NCBI GenBank assembly: GCA_015179125.1
Contig: WHVA01000210.1
Span: 62,001-126,000, forward strand
Length of the DNA stretch: 64,000 bases
Reading direction: 5' to 3'
DNA from: Gautieria morchelliformis
Taxonomy: Eukaryota > Basidiomycota > Agaricomycetes > Gomphales > Gomphaceae
Part shown: piece by piece, positions 3,751 through 64,000 of the stretch
Position numbering within the stretch: the first letter of the stretch is position 1
How the letters are laid out: every line of letters starts with the position of its first letter
Program-made: the position numbers and the translations under genes
The notes under the pieces: model-generated
Database searches by the model: none
The model's input: the letters and a program-made list of their open reading frames with translations, nothing else
Told to the model about the DNA's origin: nothing

Positions 3751-3969
3751 TCGGAGCTAGTGTCGGTACTTGGTAGGTCACGTAGCTGACTCTGGGTTCA
3801 ACGTAGCTCCACAGATGATTCTGTGGCGCGTTGCCCACGCTAGGTAGACCTACTGCTTTCTACTTTGCCTCTAGTACCCCTCCACCTTTCCCAACCTTGA
3901 CAAGCCCGAGCCTCCACCTCGCTCACTGGCCAGCTCGTTTCAGGATCTTTCAACCACACTTGGACTGTC

Positions 3970-4300
3970 TACTCTATGGCGTTCTGTCAAGACGGCAAAT
4001 GCATCATCTGACATGATCATTGGTGAGGGCTATCACAACCGGCGAGGTCGTTTCTGGACCATTCGAGGGCCACACCCACGCAGTCAGCTCTGTCGCAGTG
4101 TCGTGAGACGGCTAGCGGATCGTGTCGGGATCGTATGAATGGGATGTAACGACCGGCGATGTCATTGCAGGGCCATTCAAAGGTCACCGCGAGTGGATCT
4201 ACTCTGTTGCGTTGCCGCGGGATGGCAAGCGGTTGGGTCGGGCTCTAGGGACAATGCGATCCACGTGTGGGATGCGGATTCAAAACCGCTTCTTCGAACA
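3970..4300 (+). pseudogene. WD40-repeat fragment of a NACHT/WD40-type protein
   Basis: Two consecutive WD40 repeat units are readable. One reads TGEVVSGPFEGHTHAVSSVAVS, split here by stops near 4108 and 4117, and the next reads TTGDVIAGPFKGHREWIYSVAL with RDGKR. The GPFEGH/GPFKGH signature is typical of the long WD40 tails of basidiomycete NACHT proteins. The closing strand of the second unit is out of frame. No NTPase part is present, so it is a relic of a much larger gene. Flanking sequence is repeat-derived. Confidence 0.75.
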
Positions 4301-4429
4301 AACTTATAAGTTAACTTGACTCAGACGAAAATCAAAGTATTGGAGTGCAAGCGGATGATCCAGAATACATACATATACCATGGCTGACACTCTAGTCTGA
4401 ACGTGCTTGCTGGTGAATCAGTAAACTCG

Positions 4430-15584: not shown

Positions 15585-16215
15585 TCATGCTATATTACTC
15601 ACAAATCGGGTGATATACAGGAGTTCGAGCATCGACCATGTGCGGTTGATCAGGGACGGCGCGCCTATCGGGTGATGGCATCGGTCAGCACGTGTAACAT
15701 CTTTGCGCCTCGTGAGTCTTAGGCATTGAAACTTAGACAGCTCTGCATGGGAGTTATGTGCCGCCGACCAGGCCGTCTGCTTGTCAAGCATGTCGTTGAG
15801 CATCGCGTCACAGTCCTCGAAGGAGTCCCCAATTGCCATGAAAAAGTTGTCATCGACGTAGGCACCGCCATCCTCCTCTTCGCCTCTGGGGATCGCAACC
15901 AAGCCATAGCTGTATATAAGGTAGAGGATCATGGAAGCGGTCTCCCCCTGACCGATGCCATTATCAATGTCAATGGGTAAGGAGGAATAGTCATCAAAGC
16001 TTAGCGTAGTTTTCCTCTGCTCAAGCATGGCCTCGAAGAAGGTAATGATCTCCATGGGGTATCCCAGTTTGGCCATGTTCTTGAGGACCCTGGCTGTCAC
16101 TGCATTGGGGAAAGCACTCGCTATGTCAAGAAAGATGATGGTGACAACCTTGCACTTTCGCCAGGCTGATTTCACCCGATGCGTGAGGTGGAGAAGGGAA
16201 TCGACCATTGTTGTG
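15585..16215 (-). pseudogene. Second, foreign LINE RT fragment fused behind RNase H
   Basis: After the RNase H domain of the main LINE, the same open frame continues as a separate reverse transcriptase. It shows SLLHLTHRVKSAWRKCKV, then IIFLDIASAFPN (RT motif A), GQGETASMILYLIYSYGL (motif B) and GAYVDDNFFM (motif C), and then the thumb-side KFQCLRLTRR. The main LINE has the corresponding blocks at 17302-17700 with different sequence (LFLDIKGAFPS, VGFVDDTTMV), so this is a 5'-truncated piece of another LINE family. The junction lies near 16205-16220, just after the third RNase H aspartate (IATD). It is unclear whether it arose by insertion or template switching. Confidence 0.7.
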
Positions 16216-17444
16216 TCTGTGGCTATTGCATATCTCGACCCTCTCTCAGTGCGCAGCATCTTGGCTCCGATAGCTGCTCCTACTAGTTCCGCTTCAAACA
16301 CCGTGTGTTCCCGGTCTGTCCCCATATAAAGCCTTGCTGATCGCTGCTCTATGCCGTTTCTGTATAGCACTGCGGCGGCCCCTACCCCCCTGTCTATGCA
16401 GGATCCATCTGAGTACACCACCACGTCCGCCTCTTCTGCTGCGATCTCTTCCGCTGCTTGTGTTTTATTTTGCGGGATCCTTGCGTGGAAGGCTGGCGAC
16501 CATTTGGGTCCATGTACCACTGTCTCGACCTTTTCCATCCTGTCTGGTTCAAGCCCATTAGCATGTAGAATCTCGTGAAGCGGTGAGCGATGTCTTTTCA
16601 CGTATCTTCCAGCTGCTTTCCTCACTTTGGTTGCTAGTGGATGGGTGTGTGGCAGACATGCAAGCCTTACTGTGGCTCTATGTACTATCCTTGAGACCAG
16701 CAGCGGGAACGGGAGCAAGTCGGCGTGCGCATCTAAGGTGTCATTTGCGGTGGTTCTGAGGGCCCCGGTTATGTCTAACGCTGCCTGTCTCTGTATTCGC
16801 GCTAGCTTGGTTATGTAGCCTTTAGTCCCTTTTCTTTTTCCAGTGTCTGGTATAAGAAAAATGTCAGCTGCGTATAAGATCTTCGGCACTGCCACCATGA
16901 GGTAGTAATTTCTCATGTGATTAGCTGTTACCCCCTGCGTCGGTTTTGCGAGCCTTCTGCACTGCGCGATGTACGCCTCTCCCTTCCTAAGTGCATAGTT
17001 TGTGTGCTCTTTGAATCTCAGCTCCTGGTCTATAATTACCCCCAGTAATTTGTGCGTCGCTGTGGGCTTTATGGTGTGCTGTCCAATTTTTATTGATGGC
17101 CTTGCGACTGGTCTGGTCTTGCTTGGCCTGTCTGGTTCCTTCTCCCGTCGCCTGGTAAGTCCCATCAAGCCGAACTTTTCCACGGCGAACTGACAGTCAT
17201 GCGTCTCGGCCCAGCTCCTTGCACCTTCGATCCTGGTCATGATGTTGGACAGCTTCCCAAATGCCTCCTGAAAATCTTCCCCTTCTGCCACCATCGTAGT
17301 GTCATCCACAAAGCCTACACTGTCCTCTCCGTTCTCTCGCCGAACCCCGTCTATCAGATCTCCATTGTAAAATTGGTACGCTATCGCGGACAATGGGCAC
17401 CCTTGGTCCATCCCCCGCCCTATTGGCCTTGTGGTTGTAGTCAT
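16216..17444 (-). pseudogene. LINE ORF2, distal RT (motifs B-C) and RNase H
   Basis: The frame starts inside RT motif B (GMDQGCPLSAIAYQFYNGDL), continues through the catalytic VGFVDDTTMV strand and the HKLLGVIIDQELRFKEH thumb block, and reaches RNase H. The RNase H triad is visible as VVYSDGS (D), VFEAELVGA (E) and YAIATD (D), spaced as in type I RNase H. It is separated from the proximal RT by a frame change near 17440. Confidence 0.8.
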
Positions 17445-18370
17445 TGAAGCTAATCGTGGTGAGTCGTCCCTTGACTTTCCTTTTTATCCAGTCCATGTAT
17501 TCGGGTGGGACCCCCCTTCTGTGCATATTGTGAGTGAGTCTATCCAACATTATGCTCGGGAAAGCCCCCTTGATATCTAGGAAAAGCACCCCTAACACTC
17601 TTCCCTTCCTCCATGCATCTTTCGCCGCTGCTACCACGTAGTGAATTGTGTCCGTTGTCGTGCGCCCCGGTCGACAGCCCAAGTGGTTTTCTGGCAAAAG
17701 GTGATGTCTCTCTGCCATTTTTACCAGGTCTTCCGGTACGCATGCTGATAACACTTTCCTACCGTGTCCAAGAGCGCGATAGGCCTATACGCTCCAGGCA
17801 CTGTATAATCGGCTTTCCCCGGCTTGCGAAGGACTCTCGTTATCGAGTCCCTCCATTCGGGCGGGTATATTTTGAGCTCAAAAGTCGCGCGGAAAAGCGG
17901 GCCTAGGTAGGGCATCAAAATGTCAGTGCACTGTATTAGAAGCACATTTGGGATACCGCTGTCTCCCGGGGCCTTAAACGGGTTCAGTCTGTCTATGGCC
18001 CTTCGTATTTGGTTGTCCGTTATTGGTTGGTACTCGAAGGCCGGTCTTGGATACTCGTAGTCCGTTGGTGCTTGCTCATAGCCCTCGCTTGGATGCGGGA
18101 AGAAAGCATTGAACAGCATGTCGTCTTTTTGCTCGTTTGTTCTTGCAATTGCGTGTGTCCCATTTTCCCGTGCCATTGTCAGCGTTGGTACTCGTGTTCG
18201 ACCCCCGTCAGATGCATCTGCTGAGGCGTACTTGTGTGCCGTCCAGATCGTCTTCTGGTTGATATTGTCCAGGAAGTCTCTCCAGTGGTCCTTTTTTGAT
18301 TTCTCTATGGCACTTGGGTACTTGTTTCTAGCGATCCTATATTCCTCATGAGCTGCATCCGATGGGTCGT
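17302..18370 (-). pseudogene. LINE ORF2, proximal reverse transcriptase
   Basis: Two overlapping minus-strand frames (17721-18176 extended upstream to about 18370, and 17302-17754) hold the fingers and palm entry. The first has LNPFKAPGDSGIPNVLL, then PPEWRDSITRVLRKPGK and YRPIALLDTVGK. The second has LLPENHLGCRPGRTTTDTI and VLFLDIKGAFPSI (motif A aspartate). Frame changes fall near 18370, 17745 and 17440. Confidence 0.8.
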
Positions 18371-18371
18371 T

Positions 18372-19424
18372 TCACCTTGCGTAGGATCGTCTGCCTGCTG
18401 GCCACGTCTCTGCTCTTGTTTGTGTGAGCTGCCGTGACCACCACCGCTTCATGTATGGTGATGGCCTGCTCCTTGGAACTACTTCGTCGGTCGTATCTGC
18501 GATAGCAGTCATCAGCGCACGTAGATGTGCATTAAATTGTTGTGGTGTGAGGGGATTTGGCTCGCCGATGTCTGCTTTGAGCCTGGCTTCTAGTTTTTCG
18601 TTATACAGCTTCCAGTCTACTTGTCTGTAGTTCAGTTTTGGCTGTTGCGCGCTTGCCCGTAGACTTACGTCAAAAATGGTGTCCACTGGGAAGTGGTCAC
18701 TTTTGGGCAGTTGCTCTTCTGGTTTCAGTCTGCAGCTGGTCAAGCTCTCTTCTAAACTAGTAGAAACAAAGACGTTATCTGTGCGAGTAAGGTTCCCTGT
18801 TGCCATCGCCCTAAGCGTGGGTGCCCCTTTGGGGAGCGCCATCTGCAGGTCATGTTCGGCTACTGCATCCAATAATGTTTGTGCGGCATCCAAATTGGCC
18901 CTAGTGAACAGGTGCGTGTTCTGCAGCTCATCCCATAGTGGGTGGTGTCTGGTGAAGTCACCAACCCATATCATTCCCTCTACATTGTTCTGCTGGCCAT
19001 CGCCTCCCTCGGCTCTGTTCTGTAAAAACTTCCTTGTGGCCCTCAAGCTATCTGAGTGTGTGCAGTCACAATATAGATTGAGGAGGAGCACGTTACCCAT
19101 GTTCGTCTTTATTTCTATCGCTGTAACGTCTGGTGTTCCTACATCCACGGCCGCCCATGTGTTCGTGGCTATTTTCTTGTTTACCAGTATCATCGACCTC
19201 GTTCTCTTCTCTCTTTCCTGGTAATGCGTTTTCGGGTATATTGAGTACCAACTATTTGTAGCCCTGGCGTTTCCCAAGAAGTCAATATGCGGTTCTTGTA
19301 TTGCTAATATATCGCAACAGTCGGGTGAGCACTTAGCTAGCATTTCAGCCGTGGCTGTGAGCGATTTATTGACGTTCTGTGGTTGGATCCTCAATTTTTT
19401 TAACTGTTCGGTTTCTTCGCTCAT
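18372..19424 (-). pseudogene. LINE ORF2 start with APE-type endonuclease
   Basis: ORF2 most likely starts at the ATG at 19424-19422 (MSEETEQLKKLRIQPQNVNK), which overlaps the ORF1 stop. The endonuclease shows QPQNVNKS (N), CDILAIQEPH (the catalytic E), the MIWVGDFTRHHPLWD block (D and H-H) and LPKSDHFPVDT (SDH), the standard AP-endonuclease-like signature. It nicks target DNA to prime reverse transcription. A longer open frame extends upstream to 19739 but overlaps ORF1 and is probably not translated. Confidence 0.8.
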
Positions 19425-21112
19425 TCTTGGCGTAGGTTGTTGTCCCTGTTCTCCTCTATTTGCGTCTGCTGTCGGTTGCCTGTGAAGTCGTATTCGTCCA
19501 GCCGTCTCTGTCGGACATCTCCCGCTTCTCTTGTTGTCCACCCTTGGTCTCTGTGCCCCACCCGAGGGTTCGCTGCGCCCCTTCCTCCCCACTCGCTCCT
19601 CTCGTACTCCGTGCGCCCTCCGCCTCTTGCTTCTGCCTCCGCCTCCTGTCTCTTTTTGTTCCCTTGCGCGCCGACCCTTTTGAGCAGATCCCCAGCGTCT
19701 TCCATCTCTTCCTGGGCTCCTTGCTGCTCCCAGGTCCACGGGTTCTCGTCAGGGAAATATTTATAGGTATGCTCTGGGTCTTTTTTCTCCATCACTTGAC
19801 ATGCCTCTACGAACCTTGGGCACGTCCTGTCCCACGATGTGTGCCCGTGTGTGTCACAATTGACGCATTTGAATCTTTTTGGATCAGTTTCCTCGCACTC
19901 TGCCGTCCTGTGTTCTCCTCCACAGATGCCGCATTTGTTGGCGCTGTCGCACTCTGCGGCAACGTGTCTCACGTTGTATTTCTGGCATTTGAGACAGCGC
20001 CGCGGTTCCCTTCTCATTCTTCTTGCCCAGGTTCGTTTTCCTGCTATAATTATTCCATCTCTAGTACTTTGATTCGCTGATTCTGTACTGGCGAACTTAG
20101 CTATAATGTGTGCCGATCTCTGTCCTGCAGTTCTCCTGTGGACTGGTTTGATCCATCGGGTTTCTAGGAGGGACTCGGCGGGTAACCTCGAGTCTCGTTC
20201 TATTCTTCTCAACTCTGAAAGCGCTTCTGGTGAGTGACTTAATGGGACATATTCGACTATCACTGATAGTGCCCGGTCTTTTATCACGGCCGTTCCACTA
20301 AACTTGTTGAGGAACGTTCGTCTGTTTGTTTGGACCCACTTCGCCGCTTCTGATGTGTCCAGTTCGAGGATTATCCCACCGTTTTCTAACCTCTTGGCGC
20401 CAATGAAGACTATATCATTGAGGTCATGGTCGTCTCCCAGCTGATCGATAGCCTCATTCGCCTTCGCGCCTAATTCCTGCTCTGTCAGTTCTTTGAGCGT
20501 GTCTTGTTCCCCTCGTGGGTCCCTGTCTATCATTATTTGCTTTTCTCTTGCTCTTGCCTTTGCTAGGTTGTTTGGATGTGAGAGGGGTACATTACCCTTT
20601 AGTGCTGCCACATAACTCAGCCCTCCTGCTCCGCTGTCTGTTCTCTGTCATCCCTGCCAGTCTATTTTTCCGACATGCTCTATGAGGTTATGGGCCTCTT
20701 CTGCTGTTTCCTTTGCGACCGTAACCACATCTCTCGCCGTGTCTATAGCCGCTGTTATCTTTTCTATGACCGGACTGAGTTTCTGTTTGACCTGGCGCAG
20801 GACCGCCACCGCTACGTTTTTCGCTGCCTCCTCCGACATCAGTCTCGCAATTGCTCTGGCCCCTTCCTGCAGTGTCTTCCCAGTGGTGTTGTGTGCGAGT
20901 GAGTAGCTTAGCTGCTCCGCCGACAGCTGGTCGTCTTTCGCTAGGTAACCGTGCCTGTCTAGGTAGCTTCTCGCCTGCTCTCTGGTATGCACTGCTGCTG
21001 TCGGTTCTGTCAGGAGCTCCAGCCTGGTTCTATTGGTGGTCAAATGCTGGTTGCTCGAATTCGTCCGGCTTTGTGACGTGGCGGGCGCCTGGGAGTCGAC
21101 GCTCGGTGGCAT
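19421..21112 (-). pseudogene. LINE ORF1 (gag-like, CCHC knuckles), one in-frame stop
   Basis: It starts at the ATG at 21112 (MPPSVDSQAPATSQ). A helical region (AARDVVTVAKETAEEAHN-like, about residues 95-150) is followed by an in-frame TGA at 20648-20650, after which the same frame continues to 19421. The C-terminal half carries a row of Cys/His knuckles (CLKCQKYNVRHVAAEC, CGICGGEHRTAEC, CVNCDTHGHTSWDRTC), the nucleic-acid-binding part of LINE ORF1 proteins. Its TGA stop overlaps the ORF2 start, suggesting coupled re-initiation. Without the stop it would be about 563 residues. Confidence 0.8.
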
Positions 21113-23451: not shown

Positions 23452-23795
23452 AATGGCATTCCTGAATACCTCATGAAGGTGAGAGATGTGGGTTGGTGGG
23501 ATCACCCCTTGGAGTGCTGCACAGCTGGCAATCTAGTGGGGAGAAACCCATGTGGTAATGCAGTCACAGACTAGGATGTGAGGATGGAAGACAGAAGGTG
23601 CAAGAAAATTCTTTGGATTTTTGGAAACATGAGGCTTATGACAGTGAGCAAGCTGCAGCTGGTGAGGGTTTGCCTGGCCCACCCCACTTGCTGATGAAGA
23701 GCCAGCACCTGCTAGTGTGGCACACAAGAATGAGGAAGTAGACTTGGGTAAGGCTGGAGCTCACTTGGGAGATTGAATCAGATGGGCAGCCTTCT
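23452..23795 (-). mobile_element. YR retroelement copy 2, part left of the chromovirus
   Basis: The minus strand matches 5545-5885 of copy 1, including the piece that spells HKPHVSKNPKNFL. It stops at 23795, where the chromovirus LTR begins. The remainder of the same copy resumes at 42616, so both parts are one element divided by the insertion. It is truncated on the left at 23452. A broken fossil. Confidence 0.75.
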
Positions 23796-24008
23796 TGTAA
23801 ATGACCTGTGTATCTACATGTACATTAGTTATTACATAATCCCAGTGGGCCCCTTAGGGACCCACTGTATAGTTTATCCCTGGGAACCGGCTAGCGGTCC
23901 ACATCGCATCTTACCCTTACACTGTCACTACGTAGCATCAGAATACCACACATTGGTCAAGTTCTGTCATGCTCTTGTGACCTAAGGCTTAAGATAGACA
24001 TCTTTACA
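23796..24008 (+). repeat. Chromovirus 5' LTR
   Basis: It begins TGTAAATGACCTG and ends CTTTACA; 213 bp, equal in length to the 3' LTR with about 10 substitutions and no indel. The primer-binding site after it was not recognised. Confidence 0.9.
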
Positions 24009-24146
24009 CCTTTTTGAACTATCCTGCGGTTGATCGCCACGCGACCAACCGATAGTGGATTCGAAGCAATCTTGAAAAAGATCGCTGCGTCGACGACTAA
24101 CAATCGTTGAGACCCTCCAGTAGACCTTCTACTGTCGGCTGCAAGC

Positions 24147-36868: not shown

Positions 36869-36871
36869 AAG

Positions 36872-39240
36872 CACTGGAGGCATGGCAAAATTTCTCAAGT
36901 CAGGAAACCCCTTGAAAATTCTATGGAAATTCCACGTTTCTTGAGAGTTTCCTAGGATGAGAAATTTAGAGGAAATTTAATGTTTTACAAGGGTTTCCAA
37001 AGTTCAGGAAATTGTATAAAAATTGTAAAAATATGGTCCAGGAAATCGTGAGGAAACTGAGTCCAGAAACTGACAGTTTAACCATGATTTCCTGTCTAAA
37101 GAAATCATGTGGAAATTCTAAATTTCCTCAGAGTTTTTTGGTACAGGAAAATATTAGGAAATTCTGCAAATCTTGGCAGGAAATCTTGTGAAAATTTTAT
37201 ATTTCTCTATGATTTCCTGACTCTGGAAATTATAGTAAATATTCAGTTTCTAGGAGGAGGAAATTCACAATATCTCAAAGATTTCCTGAGGATTTCCTGG
37301 GTTGGGGAATTGTCTAGAAATTGGAATAGTGTGTTGACCACAGTCACGTGACCTGGCCTCGTCTTAAATCATGGTTTGCTAGCCTTTGAAGGCATGGAAT
37401 TGTATTTTTTTTGGCTAGTATGATGGATGGGTTCTGACCATCATTATTTTCAACATTCGAATGGTCGATCGGTTGTAGCTGCGCAGGATGAGTCACCCTT
37501 TCCCAGGCTGAGGTGCAGTGAACTGCGGAGGTCATGTGATGTGTCTACAACCACCCATGCTTTGTAAGTATTTCCCAGGCTGAGTTACGGTGAAAGCCGA
37601 ATGGAAGTCCGCCAGAACTCAGCATGGGAAATCGAAGCCCAGCGTGGGAAAGGTTACTCATCTTTCGGAGTTACATGCGATTGGCGACTGTGAAAATTAT
37701 GGCGGTCAAAATGCACAAATATTATTTTGCGCGTGAAAATGGAACCGCGCGCCCCCTGGGTATGGGTGTCTATGGGTGGTTGTAGGCCACGAGTGACAAA
37801 TACGTCGTTCGGCCGTGCGCTTGCCATGTCGGCATGACGCACGAGTTAGCCAAAGCTTGCAAGCTTTTGGCTGGGTCGTGCGTTGTGCGTCATGCCGACC
37901 CGCCGAGCATCTGTCAAGGACAGTCTCACATTACTATTCTGTATAGTCGTGATTTCAATTTTCCATCACTACGCAAGTGTGCTCATGGAAGGCTAGCCAG
38001 CTAGCCAGGTGAATTGCAAAAAAGTCACTCATCTGATGAAATCCTATCGCTCAAGTTTCGACAGAGTAGATATGGGGATGCAGAGGTACAGTAATGGATA
38101 TGCAAGTGTGGATGTACGAAAGGGATAAGACAGCGTTGAGGTATGGCGCTGTACACTAATCTTGCGCCGGTCTTCGCGAGTCGCAGGAAGACATCGTAAT
38201 CGGACTGCAAGGAGATTTCATGTAAGGATGACTGGGACTTGTTCCACGTCCTCGTTTATTTCTTCATCACCTTTCCATGAACTGGAGGTATTGACCTTCC
38301 TCTTACTCGTGCACTGCCCGGATCTCTTCTAGAAAATCTGTGGGAAGAAGGGAGTGGGGTTGACCCCAGTTCGCCAAGTCTCGACGACACTCTGACTTTG
38401 GGGAGCTGTTGCCGGTGTACTTGTTCTCTGCTTCGCAACGTGCATTCCTTATTATTCTGGGGGATCCACACCAATGACAAGGGTGTCGGGCATCCCAACG
38501 GCTTCCACGTGCTCGTCCATTCTGGAAAAATAAAGCTTGTACGTGTAGATCCGTATGTTCTGCTGAGTGGGGAAGCGTCGAAAGCTAGCACAGTTATCCT
38601 TGCGACCGGATATACACCATCATAGAGCAACCTATTTGATGGTGCGTGAAAGCATTGACTTGTTCCGAAATGCAGCTGGGCTGTACTGTACTAATAGAGC
38701 AAACAGCGGAAGAGCTTGGTATAGGCCGACATCCCCACAAGGGAATCGCGCAGGGTACTCGGTGCACTGTTAGCTTTTCTTCTCCCGTTTTAAACGCGCG
38801 CGGTGTCCAATTTTCGTCGCGCGCGCGCAAAATAATATTTGTGCATTTTGACCATCGTAGAAAATCAAGGATGACCAGAATCTTATGTAGCGCCAGAAAA
38901 TCTCCTTACAATCATTTGTAAAGGTCCCATCCATCATTCTAGCCAAAAAAAAAAAATTCCATATGTACAAAGGGTAGCAAAACATTATTTATGAGGCGGC
39001 AAGGTCGTGTGTCTGTGTCAGAAAGCACCAGCGCGCGCGGGAACAAGTTGCGGTGGATCGCGCGCGCGCGCAAAATGCAACCGCGCGCGATCAGGATTTT
39101 TTGACTTGGGGCGCGGGCGTGGCCTAATTTTTGTGCACTTGGACTGCCATAGGTACCCGGCGCTGTGCTGTCAGCGCACACGTGCTCTGGTGCACATCGC
39201 TGTCAGCGCAGGCTTGCACTTGTACCGGCGCTGTCAGCGC
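36872..39240 (+). repeat. Left arm of the giant palindrome
   Basis: It has three zones: an outer 450 bp packed with AGGAAA/TTTCCT motifs (36890-37325), a middle of mixed sequence, and an inner part rich in GCGCGC runs (38805-39090). Within the arm, 37346-37430 is a diverged inverted copy of 38926-39010, and 37704-37733 of 38824-38853. Confidence 0.9.
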
Positions 39241-39374
39241 ACGCGTGCGTTGACAGCGCCGAGTACCAGCGCACGCCTGCGTTGACAGCGCCGGGTACCA
39301 GCGCACGCCTGCGTTGACAGCGCCGAGTACCAGCGCACGCCTGCGTTGACAGCGCCGGGTACCAGCGCACGCCT
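39241..39374 (+). repeat. 32-bp tandem repeats forming the palindrome centre
   Basis: Four units of 32 bp (39241-39272, 39273-39304, 39305-39336, 39337-39368; consensus start ACGCCTGCGTTGACAGCGCC) plus a partial unit. They are head-to-tail, not inverted, and form the only asymmetric part of the element. Confidence 0.9.
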
Positions 39375-41743
39375 GCGCTGGCAGCGCCGGTACAAGTGCA
39401 AGCCTGCGCTGACAGCGATGTGCACCAGAGCACGTGTGCGCTGACAGCACAGCGCCGGGTACCTATGGCAGTCCAAGTGCACAAAAATTAGGCCACGCCC
39501 GCGCCCCAAGTCAAAAAATCCTGATCGCGCGCGGTTGCATTTTGCGCGCGCGCGCGATCCACCGCAACTTGTTCCCGCGCGCGCTGGTGCTTTCTGACAC
39601 AGACACACGACCTTGCCGCCTCATAAATAATGTTTTGCTACCCTTTGTACATATGGAATTTTTTTTTTTTGGCTAGAATGATGGATGGGACCTTTACAAA
39701 TGATTGTAAGGAGATTTTCTGGCGCTACATAAGATTCTGGTCATCCTTGATTTTCTACGATGGTCAAAATGCACAAATATTATTTTGCGCGCGCGCGACG
39801 AAAATTGGACACCGCGCGCGTTTAAAACGGGAGAAGAAAAGCTAACAGTGCACCGAGTACCCTGCGCGATTCCCTTGTGGGGATGTCGGCCTATACCAAG
39901 CTCTTCCGCTGTTTGCTCTATTAGTACAGTACAGCCCAGCTGCATTTCGGAACAAGTCAATGCTTTCACGCACCATCAAATAGGTTGCTCTATGATGGTG
40001 TATATCCGGTCGCAAGGATAACTGTGCTAGCTTTCGACGCTTCCCCACTCAGCAGAACATACGGATCTACACGTACAAGCTTTATTTTTCCAGAATGGAC
40101 GAGCACGTGGAAGCCGTTGGGATGCCCGACACCCTTGTCATTGGTGTGGATCCCCCAGAATAATAAGGAATGCACGTTGCGAAGCAGAGAACAAGTACAC
40201 CGGCAACAGCTCCCCAAAGTCAGAGTGTCGTCGAGACTTGGCGAACTGGGGTCAACCCCACTCCCTTCTTCCCACAGATTTTCTAGAAGAGATCCGGGCA
40301 GTGCACGAGTAAGAGGAAGGTCAATACCTCCAGTTCATGGAAAGGTGATGAAGAAATAAACGAGGACGTGGAACAAGTCCCAGTCATCCTTACATGAAAT
40401 CTCCTTGCAGTCCGATTACGATGTCTTCCTGCGACTCGCGAAGACCGGCGCAAGATTAGTGTACAGCGCCATACCTCAACGCTGTCTTATCCCTTTCGTA
40501 CATCCACACTTGCATATCCATTACTGTACCTCTGCATCCCCATATCTACTCTGTCGAAACTTGAGCGATAGGATTTCATCAGATGAGTGACTTTTTTGCA
40601 ATTCACCTGGCTAGCTGGCTAGCCTTCCATGAGCACACTTGCGTAGTGATGGAAAATTGAAATCACGACTATACAGAATAGTAATGTGAGACTGTCCTTG
40701 ACAGATGCTCGGCGGGTCGGCATGACGCACAACGCACGACCCAGCCAAAAGCTTGCAAGCTTTGGCTAACTCGTGCGTCATGCCGACATGGCAAGCGCAC
40801 GGCCGAACGACGTATTTGTCACTCGTGGCCTACAACCACCCATAGACACCCATACCCAGGGGGCGCGCGGTTCCATTTTCACGCGCAAAATAATATTTGT
40901 GCATTTTGACCGCCATAATTTTCACAGTCGCCAATCGCATGTAACTCCGAAAGATGAGTAACCTTTCCCACGCTGGGCTTCGATTTCCCATGCTGAGTTC
41001 TGGCGGACTTCCATTCGGCTTTCACCGTAACTCAGCCTGGGAAATACTTACAAAGCATGGGTGGTTGTAGACACATCACATGACCTCCGCAGTTCACTGC
41101 ACCTCAGCCTGGGAAAGGGTGACTCATCCTGCGCAGCTACAACCGATCGACCATTCGAATGTTGAAAATAATGATGGTCAGAACCCATCCATCATACTAG
41201 CCAAAAAAAATACAATTCCATGCCTTCAAAGGCTAGCAAACCATGATTTAAGACGAGGCCAGGTCACGTGACTGTGGTCAACACACTATTCCAATTTCTA
41301 GACAATTCCCCAACCCAGGAAATCCTCAGGAAATCTTTGAGATATTGTGAATTTCCTCCTCCTAGAAACTGAATATTTACTATAATTTCCAGAGTCAGGA
41401 AATCATAGAGAAATATAAAATTTTCACAAGATTTCCTGCCAAGATTTGCAGAATTTCCTAATATTTTCCTGTACCAAAAAACTCTGAGGAAATTTAGAAT
41501 TTCCACATGATTTCTTTAGACAGGAAATCATGGTTAAACTGTCAGTTTCTGGACTCAGTTTCCTCACGATTTCCTGGACCATATTTTTACAATTTTTATA
41601 CAATTTCCTGAACTTTGGAAACCCTTGTAAAACATTAAATTTCCTCTAAATTTCTCATCCTAGGAAACTCTCAAGAAACGTGGAATTTCCATAGAATTTT
41701 CAAGGGGTTTCCTGACTTGAGAAATTTTGCCATGCCTCCAGTG
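39375..41743 (-). repeat. Right arm of the giant palindrome
   Basis: The mirror image of 36872-39240. One A/G difference was seen near 39381 at the inner edge; the remaining positions compared by eye were identical. Confidence 0.9.
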
Positions 41744-41746
41744 AAG

Positions 41747-42402: not shown

Positions 42403-42615
42403 TGTAAATGACCCGTGTATCTACATGTACATTAGTTATTACGTAATCCCAGTGGGCCCCTTAGGGACCCACTGTATAGTTTATGCGTGGGAACTGGCTA
42501 GTGGTCCAGATCGCATCTTACCCTTACACTGTCACTACGTAGCATCAGAATACCACACATTGGTCAAGTTCTGTCGTGCTCTTGTGACCTAAGGCTTAAG
42601 ATAGACATCTCTTCA
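42403..42615 (+). repeat. Chromovirus 3' LTR
   Basis: 213 bp, beginning TGTAAATGACCCG and ending CTCTTCA. It is followed by the CTTCT target duplication and then the right part of the YR retroelement. Confidence 0.9.
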
Positions 42616-43632
42616 CTTCTGCAGCTAGGCCCAACTTGCAACGATACATGGGGGCTGACAAGCAAGGAGTTTCATGGCAATCTCCATGGTTGATTTGGGT
42701 ACAGTGAGGAAGGTGATTATGTGCACAAGGTACTTCAGTCACTTGTGTTCGGGTATGGCCACAGAGCGTACTTGCAAGTCCCAGAGGAAACTGACATAAT
42801 TGGAGATAAAGGAATATATGCTGCCTTTGAGTGTCGCTGGGTGCCACGGCATGCCAAGTGGTAAGGTGATTGTGATTATAGTGTCGAGATTGTACAAGTA
42901 TATGTAAACTGTGGTGCAGTTCCATGTGGGGCCGATGCCGTGTGCTTTGAGTATGTCTGAAATGGCATTGGCTACATGGCCCTGAATGCCTCCTCCGGTC
43001 GCCACACCAAATGGGAGTCCATGGTCTATGTAGTAAAGGCCTCTCTAGTGGAGAATGATGTAACACTTATGGGCGGGAAGCACTGGTGAGTCCCAGTATG
43101 CCCTTTGTATGTCCATGCATGCAGCCCGTGTGCCAGGCGGTGCTGTGATGAGCTGGACAAGTGGAGATGTGTGAGCTACTATCGTCAATGCGTGGACATG
43201 AAGTGAGAAGTGAGGAATGATAGAAGAGGATGGTCATGGTATGGTCCTGTTCAGGATCATTGTGAGTGTGCATGTGGGGCTGCTTGTTCAAGTTGGCTGG
43301 ACCATTCAGTTTGTGTGTGATTCTTGGTGGTAGGTGACGGTTGTGGCGTTGTCTAAGGCTCCCTCACAGGTTTTCACTGTCTGCACTCATTGGTGATGAG
43401 CGCGAAATATGACTTGATGTGTTTCAGCCATAAGCATGCTGTGAGCCTGAAATAGTTGACTTGCCTGCAAATCCTCCTGATAGCGCTCCTGAAATGTGAC
43501 CAATAAATAATTTATGTCCGACGAAGGCTAGTACTGTACAAGACTTACGGGTCCAACATAGGACTACCATGGATGTTCCCACCGTCATGTTTCCTATGGC
43601 TCCCACATTTTAGCACACATATGAAGTAAGAA
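42616..43632 (-). mobile_element. YR retroelement copy 2, part right of the chromovirus
   Basis: The minus strand matches 4522-5550 of copy 1, including the RT block (GGGIQGHVANAISDILKAHG) and the region upstream. Together with 23452-23795 it is one YR element opened by the chromovirus. The recombinase end is missing. A broken fossil, older than the chromovirus. Confidence 0.75.
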
Positions 43633-62982: not shown

Positions 62983-64000
62983 CTAGGTGGGTACCCGCGC
63001 GAAGCGCGGGGGTGTAGGTCAAGCGCCTTGGTAAGGTCAAATGCATAAGTAAGGTCAAGTGAATCAGTAAGGTCAAGTGAATCAGTAAGGTCAAGTGAAT
63101 CAGTAAGTTCAAGTGCATTGGGGTAAATAGGATCATGCAAAATATATCCCTGATCACATAGTATCATGAATCATGTATGCACCCATGGAACAGCCGAACA
63201 TGCAGAGCTCTCTCTCGACCTCTGGGATGGGCCTCCCAGCGACTCTAGACATGAAAGTGGTAATAGTCTTGACTGAATCATCAGAGATTATAAGATTGCG
63301 CCAATTGTCATAATCAACAGGTTTCAAAGCTTGTGCATTGTGAAATAGATCCAATAGTGATCTTGGGGATCCTGAATGTTGACAATGTGGTTACATCAAT
63401 ATGCCAGCTGATCCTCCGGTGACACTCTCACAGAACCAGAAACAATACCAAAATCAGAAATGGGGGAAGACCCAAAGTGCAGTTGGATAGCATGTCCTCA
63501 CACGTAACGTGTCCTCACAGGTAGCGTGTCCCCACACGTAACGTGTCCTCACAGGTAGCGTGTCCCCACACGTAACGTGTCCTCACAGGTAGCGTGTCCC
63601 CACACGTAACGTGTCCTCACAGGTAGCATGTCCCCACAGGTAGCGTGTCCTCACAGGTAGCATGTCCTCACAGGTAGCATGTCCCCACACGTAACGTGTC
63701 CTCACAGGTAGCGTGTCCCCAAACGTAGCGTGTCCTCACAGGTAATGTGTCCCCACAGGTAGCATGTCCTCACAGGTAGCGTGTCCTCACAGGTAGCGTG
63801 TCCTCACAGGTAGCGTGTCCTCACAGGTAGCGTGTCCCCACACGTAACATGTCCTCACAGGTAGTGTGTCCCCAAACGTAGCGTGTCCTCACAGGTAATG
63901 TGTCCCCACAGGTAGCGTGTCCCCGCACATAACGTGTCCTCACAGGTAGCGTGTCCCCACACATAACATGTCCTCACAGGTAGCGTGTCCCCACACGTAA
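62983..64000 (-). mobile_element. Helitron-like element C, continues past the window
   Basis: The minus-strand 3' terminus is canonical: hairpin CCCCGCGCTTCGCGCGGG, TACCCAC, CTAG (62986-62983), then T. Inside it are GGTCAAGTGAATCAGTAA tandem units (63035-63115) and the minisatellite at 63486-64000. A 66-codon minus-strand frame at 63154-63354 (LKPVDYDNWRNLIISDDSVK) looks protein-like but was not recognised. Confidence 0.65.
63486..64000 (+). repeat. TAGCGTGTCCTCACAGG minisatellite in Helitron C
   Basis: About 30 units of 17 bp, alternating GTAGCGTGTCCTCACAG and GTAACGTGTCCCCACAC types, running to the end of the window. Much more homogeneous than the arrays in A and B2. Confidence 0.9.

Follow-up and report, generated by a model that had tools for sequence, protein, structure and literature searches.

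A 4,872-bp palindromic insertion in Gautieria morchelliformis, a likely foldback derivative of a long-armed EnSpm/CACTA transposon

How does a palindrome with identical kilobase-scale arms come to lie in a fungal genome, and what keeps its arms alike? We addressed this question for a locus of Gautieria morchelliformis, a false truffle treated as ectomycorrhizal in the portion of PMC7550596 available to us, using a window of 64,000 nucleotides (C239:62001-126000; the assembly has 1,113 contigs and a total of 122 Mb) in which the palindrome occupies positions 36872-41743. In our reading, to which we assign a probability of about 0.65, this 4,872-bp palindrome is a mobile insertion that probably descends, as a non-autonomous foldback form, from a long-armed EnSpm/CACTA transposon. 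In the same reading a tnp2-type transposase would move it in trans, and once it had diverged from its relatives one of its arms was probably rewritten from the other. All structural results were drawn from assembled contigs; the same portion of PMC7550596 gives JGI sequencing as Illumina and/or PacBio and leaves unstated which of them was used for this species.

The palindrome and its insertion site

Each base from 36872 to 39233 pairs with its mirror in 39382-41743 about an axis sum of 78,615, and the two arms (2,362 bp each) contain no mismatch and no indel. An arm length of this order excludes a chance origin. The first mismatched mirror positions are 39234, 39242, 39250 and 39253; when the first three are tolerated the arms become 36872-39252 and 39363-41743 (2,381 nt) around a spacer of 110 nt. 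The ends read CACTGGAGGC...GCCTCCAGTG, or CACTGGAGGCATGGC...GCCATGCCTCCAGTG in longer form, and AAG flanks the palindrome on both sides. Direct base comparison bore out the palindrome coordinates, axis sum, ends, AAG duplication and indel-free mirroring of the original prediction, and corrected its arm length of 2,369 bp to 2,362 bp. No open reading frame (ORF) of at least 200 aa, counted from an ATG, GTG or TTG start to a stop on either strand, overlaps 36872-41743, in agreement with the earlier statement that the palindrome holds no transposase. Its features, including breakpoints defined against a related copy on contig C575, are as follows.

36869-36871, no strand: target-site duplication AAG, left copy (one AAG in 6 of 6 empty sites read; joined flank matched in 40 of 40 scored)
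36872-39233, plus strand: left arm, exact mirror of the right arm (2,362 bp, 0 mismatches, by mirror pairing)
36872-37311, plus strand: subterminal zone, the first 440 bp, with 11 AGGAAAT in both orientations (assessed by dinucleotide shuffles)
38795-38800, plus strand: left-arm breakpoint of a 1,983-bp deletion, defined against the C575 arms (arm alignment)
39167-39448, no strand: 32-bp minisatellite arrays, minus to about 39220 and plus from about 39228
39222-39266, no strand: 45-bp near-perfect hairpin unit at which the array orientation switches (-22.3 kcal/mol as DNA, z -6.9)
39253-39362, no strand: spacer between the arms, 110 bp, with minisatellite units in right-arm orientation
39382-41743, minus strand: right arm, exact mirror of the left arm (mirror pairing)
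39815-39820, minus strand: right-arm breakpoint of the 1,983-bp deletion, mirror of 38795-38800 (mirror pairing and arm alignment)
41744-41746, no strand: target-site duplication AAG, right copy (empty sites)

Both flanks of the palindrome are parts of one Ty3/gypsy-type retroelement with the following long terminal repeats (LTRs).

23796-24009, plus strand: 5' LTR of the host retroelement, with TTCT at 23792-23795
42403-42616, plus strand: 3' LTR of the same retroelement, 95.3% identical to the 5' LTR, with the duplicated TTCT at 42617-42620

Because a single LTR pair with its TTCT duplication surrounds the palindrome, the two flanks are one locus and the palindrome was inserted later than the retroelement. 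The LTRs differ at 10 of 214 positions (4.7% divergence), whereas the palindrome arms differ at 0 of 2,362. Reverse transcriptase, Integrase_H2C2 and SH3_Tf2-1 domains of the host element score above cut-off and its rve and chromodomain matches score under theirs, so that the flanks, which had been called chromovirus, are Ty3/gypsy-type with the narrower label plausible only.

The site was also found without the palindrome. A 200-bp query made of 100 bp of each flank joined through one AAG was searched genome-wide; all 40 scored matches, out of 742 first-look candidates, covered the full 200 bp at 95-97%, and the six copies cut out and read each contained a single AAG. The palindrome is an insertion. 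These observations bear directly on the idea of an assembly artefact, in which one arm was folded over, or two slightly different arms were collapsed with the interior dropped in the minisatellite. We regard such an artefact as improbable, as unlike flanks meet at one site of one retroelement copy and AAG is duplicated. The original prediction had held a simple fold-over error to be unlikely from the unlike flanks and the AAG duplication, and the LTR pair with its own TTCT strengthens that argument.

A family of related copies

The first 23 bases of the element end, searched with up to 2 mismatches, occur 137 times in forward and 132 times in reverse orientation (269 ends), compared with 0 and 0 for the reversed control; individual places were taken from the first 100 among the matches listed. 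A variant end, GAGACATGG, occurs 40 and 38 times in the two orientations, with many occurrences paired about 0.5 kb apart. A large family sharing the ends of the palindrome exists in this genome. For comparison we used 27 copies, fetched as nearest convergent end pairs 0.5 to 25.6 kb apart and forming a subset of the pairs in the genome; in the longest, the two ends may come from separate insertions. A 3-bp duplication is present in 16 of the 27, and the genome search proposed with the original prediction has in this way yielded further copies. In C143 and C628 the halves fail to align over 440 bp (193/376 and 199/389) and only the ends match. The 20.6-kb copy in C1026 has Helitron-type genes (Helitron_like_N, PIF1) between its ends, at L020:6468-10000 on the minus strand, which are probably nested or captured.

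The inner arm (window 37900-38700) is nearly whole at ten genomic places, two each in the window copy, C575 and C1102 and one each in C311, C615, C154 and C133; the remainder of the 22 matches are part of the inner arm in C1 and 11 short matches of 72-95% identity. The C575 copy, which begins at C575:5148, has arms of about 4.7 kb that are 98.3% identical over 4,446 aligned positions and surround an interior of about 6.5 kb. Two other copies consist of arm sequence only and lie between unlike flanks. In C1 (2,201 bp, AAC duplication) unequal arms, arm positions 1-862 and 1324-1, directly abut, and in C311 (3,846 bp, CTA duplication) a left arm of about 2.9 kb is combined with a right arm of 0.9 kb. 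Compared with these two, the window copy is the symmetric case. The origins of foldback elements as a structural class are often unclear, and a graded series in one genome (arms with a transposase fragment, arms with an array, arms only) links the foldback form to the EnSpm/CACTA group.

Three contigs of the family have a bearing on how far the assembly can be relied on. In C1102 (C1102:1-8742, L013) a 3,610-bp inverted repeat runs through 56 bp of flank to the contig end, and the flank matches the right flank of C311 (L010/L042) at 98.5% identity over 2,942 bp; this is likely a folded haplotype contig. In C264 (C264:40817-60000; L015, L016, L039, L040) 1,527 bp of flank are duplicated in inverted orientation at 100% identity, either by an assembly fold-over or by a real fold-back duplication. 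The C1010 copy (L014) resembles C264 in its left flank (99.6% over 502 positions) and C415 in its right flank and right arm (0 mismatches over 439 arm positions), has no target duplication, and is either an assembly chimera or a product of ectopic recombination of the Galileo type. Because of this folded or chimeric look of their flanks, we do not count C1102 and C1010 as support. C1010 and C264 also share an ORF (L014:3891-4997, minus strand, 369 aa; L015:9260-10000, plus strand, cut in C264) which has no Pfam match and is possible cargo, the two loci not being independent.

These contigs show that the assembly around this family can be wrong, with fold-over-like structures in C1102 and C264, and to that extent they favour an artefact; they also serve as a warning about folded or chimeric-looking contigs at these repeats. 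Two further observations on the palindrome argue the other way. Its arms carry variants absent from every other copy compared, so that they were not overwritten from those copies, and the C575 copy has the same pattern of matching with an interior separating its arms.

Matching arms and the minisatellite centre

In many copies the first 440 bp vary too little for within-copy and between-copy differences to be told apart, and for this reason arms were compared over arm positions 307-1929 in a few copies. Over this tract the two arms of the window copy are identical (0 differences in 1,623 positions) and those of C575 have a single difference in 1,612, compared with 25-36 differences between copies. 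Over arm positions 307-860 the C311 arms differ at 0 of 559 positions versus 5-10 differences to other copies, and the C1 arms at 4 of 562 versus 6-11. The arms of C793 have 0 mismatches in 470 positions. Those of C1102 also match and were not counted, as the repeat enters the flank at the contig end. Between long-armed copies, inner-arm divergence is 1.6 to 4.5% over 801 bp, and the window copy is roughly 2-5% divergent there from the six long-armed relatives compared.

The substitutions private to one copy are shared between its arms. When the window copy was compared with C575, C1102 and C311, all 19 of its private substitutions were present in both arms, as were 10 of the 11 private to C575; an 801-bp comparison that took in three more copies gave 11 of 11 and 4 of 4, respectively. 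A deletion gives the same picture, in that 1,983 bp present in both C575 arms are absent from both window arms with the same breakpoints, window arm 1-1929 and 1924-2377 aligning to C575 arm 1-1918 and 3902-4354. This segment is whole on the left and partial on the right in C1102, and its first ~1 kb is found in C311. The match between the C575 arms continues for about 4.0 kb with 3 mismatches and then fails inside the minisatellite (36 mismatches in about 412 sites).

If a single ancestral arm duplication had been followed by separate evolution, left and right arms should differ at least as much as copies do, and the contrary was observed. As arms differ less within a copy than between copies, the comparison implies that arm-to-arm copying probably took place after the copies split, in a few long-armed copies. 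The original prediction had offered an element either very young or kept identical by conversion between its arms; the shared private variants and shared deletion point to copying, to which youth may add. Homogenization may have occurred by gene conversion, in which repair of one arm used the other as template. With private substitutions and a deletion common to both arms of one copy and absent from every other copy compared, the question of what keeps kilobase inverted repeats identical can be tested directly.

The inner arm ends are made up of a 32-bp minisatellite. The C575 arrays lie about 6.5 kb apart, with every unit in minus orientation on the left and in plus orientation on the right, while in the window copy the arrays meet head-to-head and minus turns to plus at one unit, the hairpin unit at 39222-39266. 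The array of C510, with one minus step followed by plus throughout, gives weak support to the same kind of orientation flip. As the unit is nearly its own reverse complement, the two inverted arrays share local direct homology, and joining of the arrays at this near-palindromic unit would be the simplest path to loss of the interior. The simplest occasion for such joining would be repair that followed a cut or the stalling of a copying step.

The main rival explanation is a snap-back event, in which a DNA end turned back on itself at the minisatellite hairpin and used its own arm as template, so that the palindrome was perfect from birth and is too recent to have diverged. The orientation flip on a near-perfect 45-bp hairpin fits such an event, as do the deletion and private variants common to both arms, and the inverted repeats of C264 and C1102 continue into flank as over-extended fold-back copying predicts, although both of these contigs may be assembly errors. 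The right end of the palindrome, however, stops exactly at the element end with the correct AAG and a different flank, which would require a later transposition of the palindrome, and the C575 arms are equally matched across an interior of about 6.5 kb, which leaves the pattern as a whole unexplained. A snap-back may have made the window palindrome in one step without explaining C575, and overall we consider it unlikely.

Copying between arms could also be more than an occasional event. In a wider proposal, which we hold only tentatively and think unlikely, the family would renew itself arm by arm: in each cycle of transposition or repair one arm would template the other with the hairpin-forming minisatellite as turn-around, every long-armed copy would become a clonal palindrome with private matched arms, and gutted copies would emerge as perfect palindromes.

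The form of the palindrome also raises the idea of a natural silencing trigger. At the maize Mu killer locus an RNA hairpin is diced into small RNAs directed against a transposon family, and a read-through transcript of the window palindrome would likewise be a 2.4-kb RNA hairpin that could be diced into small RNAs against the whole family. The anatomy, a long perfect inverted repeat with a short spacer inside a possibly transcribed retroelement, is what speaks for this. The same form follows from deletion and copying without any function, and we judge a silencing role to be the least probable of the explanations considered here.

Superfamily and transposase gene

An ORF of 285 aa in the interior of C575 matches Transposase_21 weakly, and the annotated protein P0001 covers most of this ORF; an ORF of C575 is 100% identical over 93% of its length to hypothetical protein JB92DRAFT_3265622 of G. 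morchelliformis. Two relatives of this gene, P0002 (51% identity) and P0003 (81% over the 38% of the ORF covered), both score above the Transposase_21 cut-off, and so did all 5 further relatives scanned (7 of 7 in total). A search with P0003 returned 31 proteins including itself and P0001, and 29 of them have PF02992 precomputed. P0001 retains the stretches of the alignment that we take to be second-D, C(2)C and MH...H, motif names that in part follow PMC12730594. A PDB sequence search with P0002 gave 10 sequences, none convincing (best E 0.11), and no match at E 1 or better was obtained when the C575 interior, with stops masked, was scanned in three forward frames. We ran hmmscan on 20 ORFs, of which 18 came from family loci (a number of these loci run inward from one end and may extend past the copy), and found no transposase in the other long copies; the scan returned retroelement and Helitron-type genes, unmatched or sub-threshold ORFs and the weak C575 Transposase_21 match.

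Subterminal repeats are a hallmark of EnSpm/CACTA elements. In the palindrome AGGAAAT is present 11 times, in both orientations, within 440 bp, and among 300 dinucleotide shuffles a single one contains any 7-mer that reaches this count. The element has the 5'-CAC...GTG-3' termini described for EnSpm/CACTA (PMC12730594), its ends being CACTGG...CCAGTG, and the 3-bp duplication of that group is represented by AAG together with the empty sites. By ends and duplications the palindrome would thus belong with fungal EnSpm as described in the available part of PMC12730594, apart from Plavaka. It is also a foldback element in form, as the arms make up nearly all of a non-coding element (2 x 2,381 bp of 4,872 bp) and contain tandem repeats, the 32-bp minisatellite at their inner ends. 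Transposition could be carried out by a trans-acting EnSpm/CACTA transposase binding the repeat-rich subterminal zone. The non-autonomous, CACTA-like foldback element of the original prediction is supported by the empty site, the large family and the tnp2-type fragment in C575; the autonomous transposase with the same ends that it called for was found as a truncated tnp2-type gene in C575 and not as a complete one.

It appears very improbable that the palindrome belongs instead to another superfamily, Mutator or Plavaka, as a foldback element whose CACT ends arose by convergence. P0009, a relative of the C575 gene, does pass the Plavaka model as well (28.7 versus a cut-off of 26.3), but the Transposase_21 cut-off is passed by every relative scanned, and Plavaka elements require TGT..ACA or CATCA..TGATG termini in the part of PMC12730594 available, a requirement that the CACTGG..CCAGTG ends rule out. 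A Mutator-type foldback was rejected as duplications of about 8-10 bp, the size seen in the putatively Mutator-type element Tetris, would be expected in place of 3 bp. Miniature inverted-repeat transposable elements are non-coding copies well under 1 kb. The palindrome at 4,872 bp is not of this class, and copies of ~0.5 kb with the variant end do exist.

Several results weigh against the explanation we prefer. The Transposase_21 score of P0001 is 12.3, below the cut-off of 28.6. The C575 gene is incomplete, as only stretches matching P0002 residues 199-459 and P0003 residues 233-340 were found, and the alignment search did not locate the first-D stretch in C575. Given this missing stretch, the tnp2/Transposase_21-type gene is read as a probable truncated relic. 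A second copy of the gene was not found genome-wide, matches elsewhere being of 28-42% identity only. The C575 right arm is without its outer 306 bp. Eleven of the 27 copies compared lack a 3-bp duplication, among them C1102, C264 and C1010, the three family contigs that look folded or chimeric. In nine copies of ~0.5 kb the halves differ at 32-46 of 201-287 sites, and 8 of these 9 have their nearest other copy at 12 mismatches or fewer; arm homogenization is not general across the family, and the short copies behave in the opposite way. In C604, C226, C239:27051-43972, C382 and C415 the arms, compared over the first 440 bp, resemble some other copy at least as closely as each other (12, 6, 50, 2 and 4 mismatches between arms, respectively).

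Foldback derivatives are known in other superfamilies, Galileo and Tetris among them, and what is likely new here is one of EnSpm/CACTA type. Like the palindrome family, Galileo, Newton and Kepler (P superfamily, Drosophila) have, in the parts of PMC2775673 and PMC4168063 available, long internally repetitive non-coding inverted repeats and a gradient from near-complete to arms-only copies; they were shown to derive from a cut-and-paste transposon and have been implicated in ectopic recombination. They differ in having a P-type transposase and 7-bp duplications, in contrast to the EnSpm/CACTA-type ends and 3-bp duplications of the fungal family, and those parts of the two papers make no mention of within-copy arm homogenization as seen in the long-armed copies here. 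Tetris of Drosophila virilis is likewise non-autonomous with internal tandem repeats in its foldback arms; in the available part of PMC4079207 it is described with 8-10-bp duplications, a suggested Mutator affiliation, 220-bp repeats and no autonomous partner, and its authors suspected homogenization of tandem repeats within two of three complete copies. The palindrome family, in contrast, has a partner with a tnp2-type gene fragment, and the homogenized tract is the non-repetitive arm itself. A view cited in the same part of PMC4079207 is that the foldback form can arise in different lineages by transposase loss and repeat elongation. Fungal EnSpm (CACTA) elements of the CMCT group share CAC..GTG termini and 3-bp duplications with the palindrome family, and their transposases are described as Plavaka/EnSpm relatives that carry C(2)C and H motifs; the available part of PMC12730594 mentions neither kilobase-scale arms nor foldback derivatives, both of which are present here. 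No basidiomycete foldback transposon turned up in the portion of the literature searched, which does not establish absence from print.

Elsewhere in the window, where no Rfam match was obtained at gathering scores, positions 15585-19739 on the minus strand carry non-LTR retrotransposon-type genes (endonuclease, reverse transcriptase and a sub-threshold RNase H), and a 17-bp tandem array at 63386-63999 reaches the window end.

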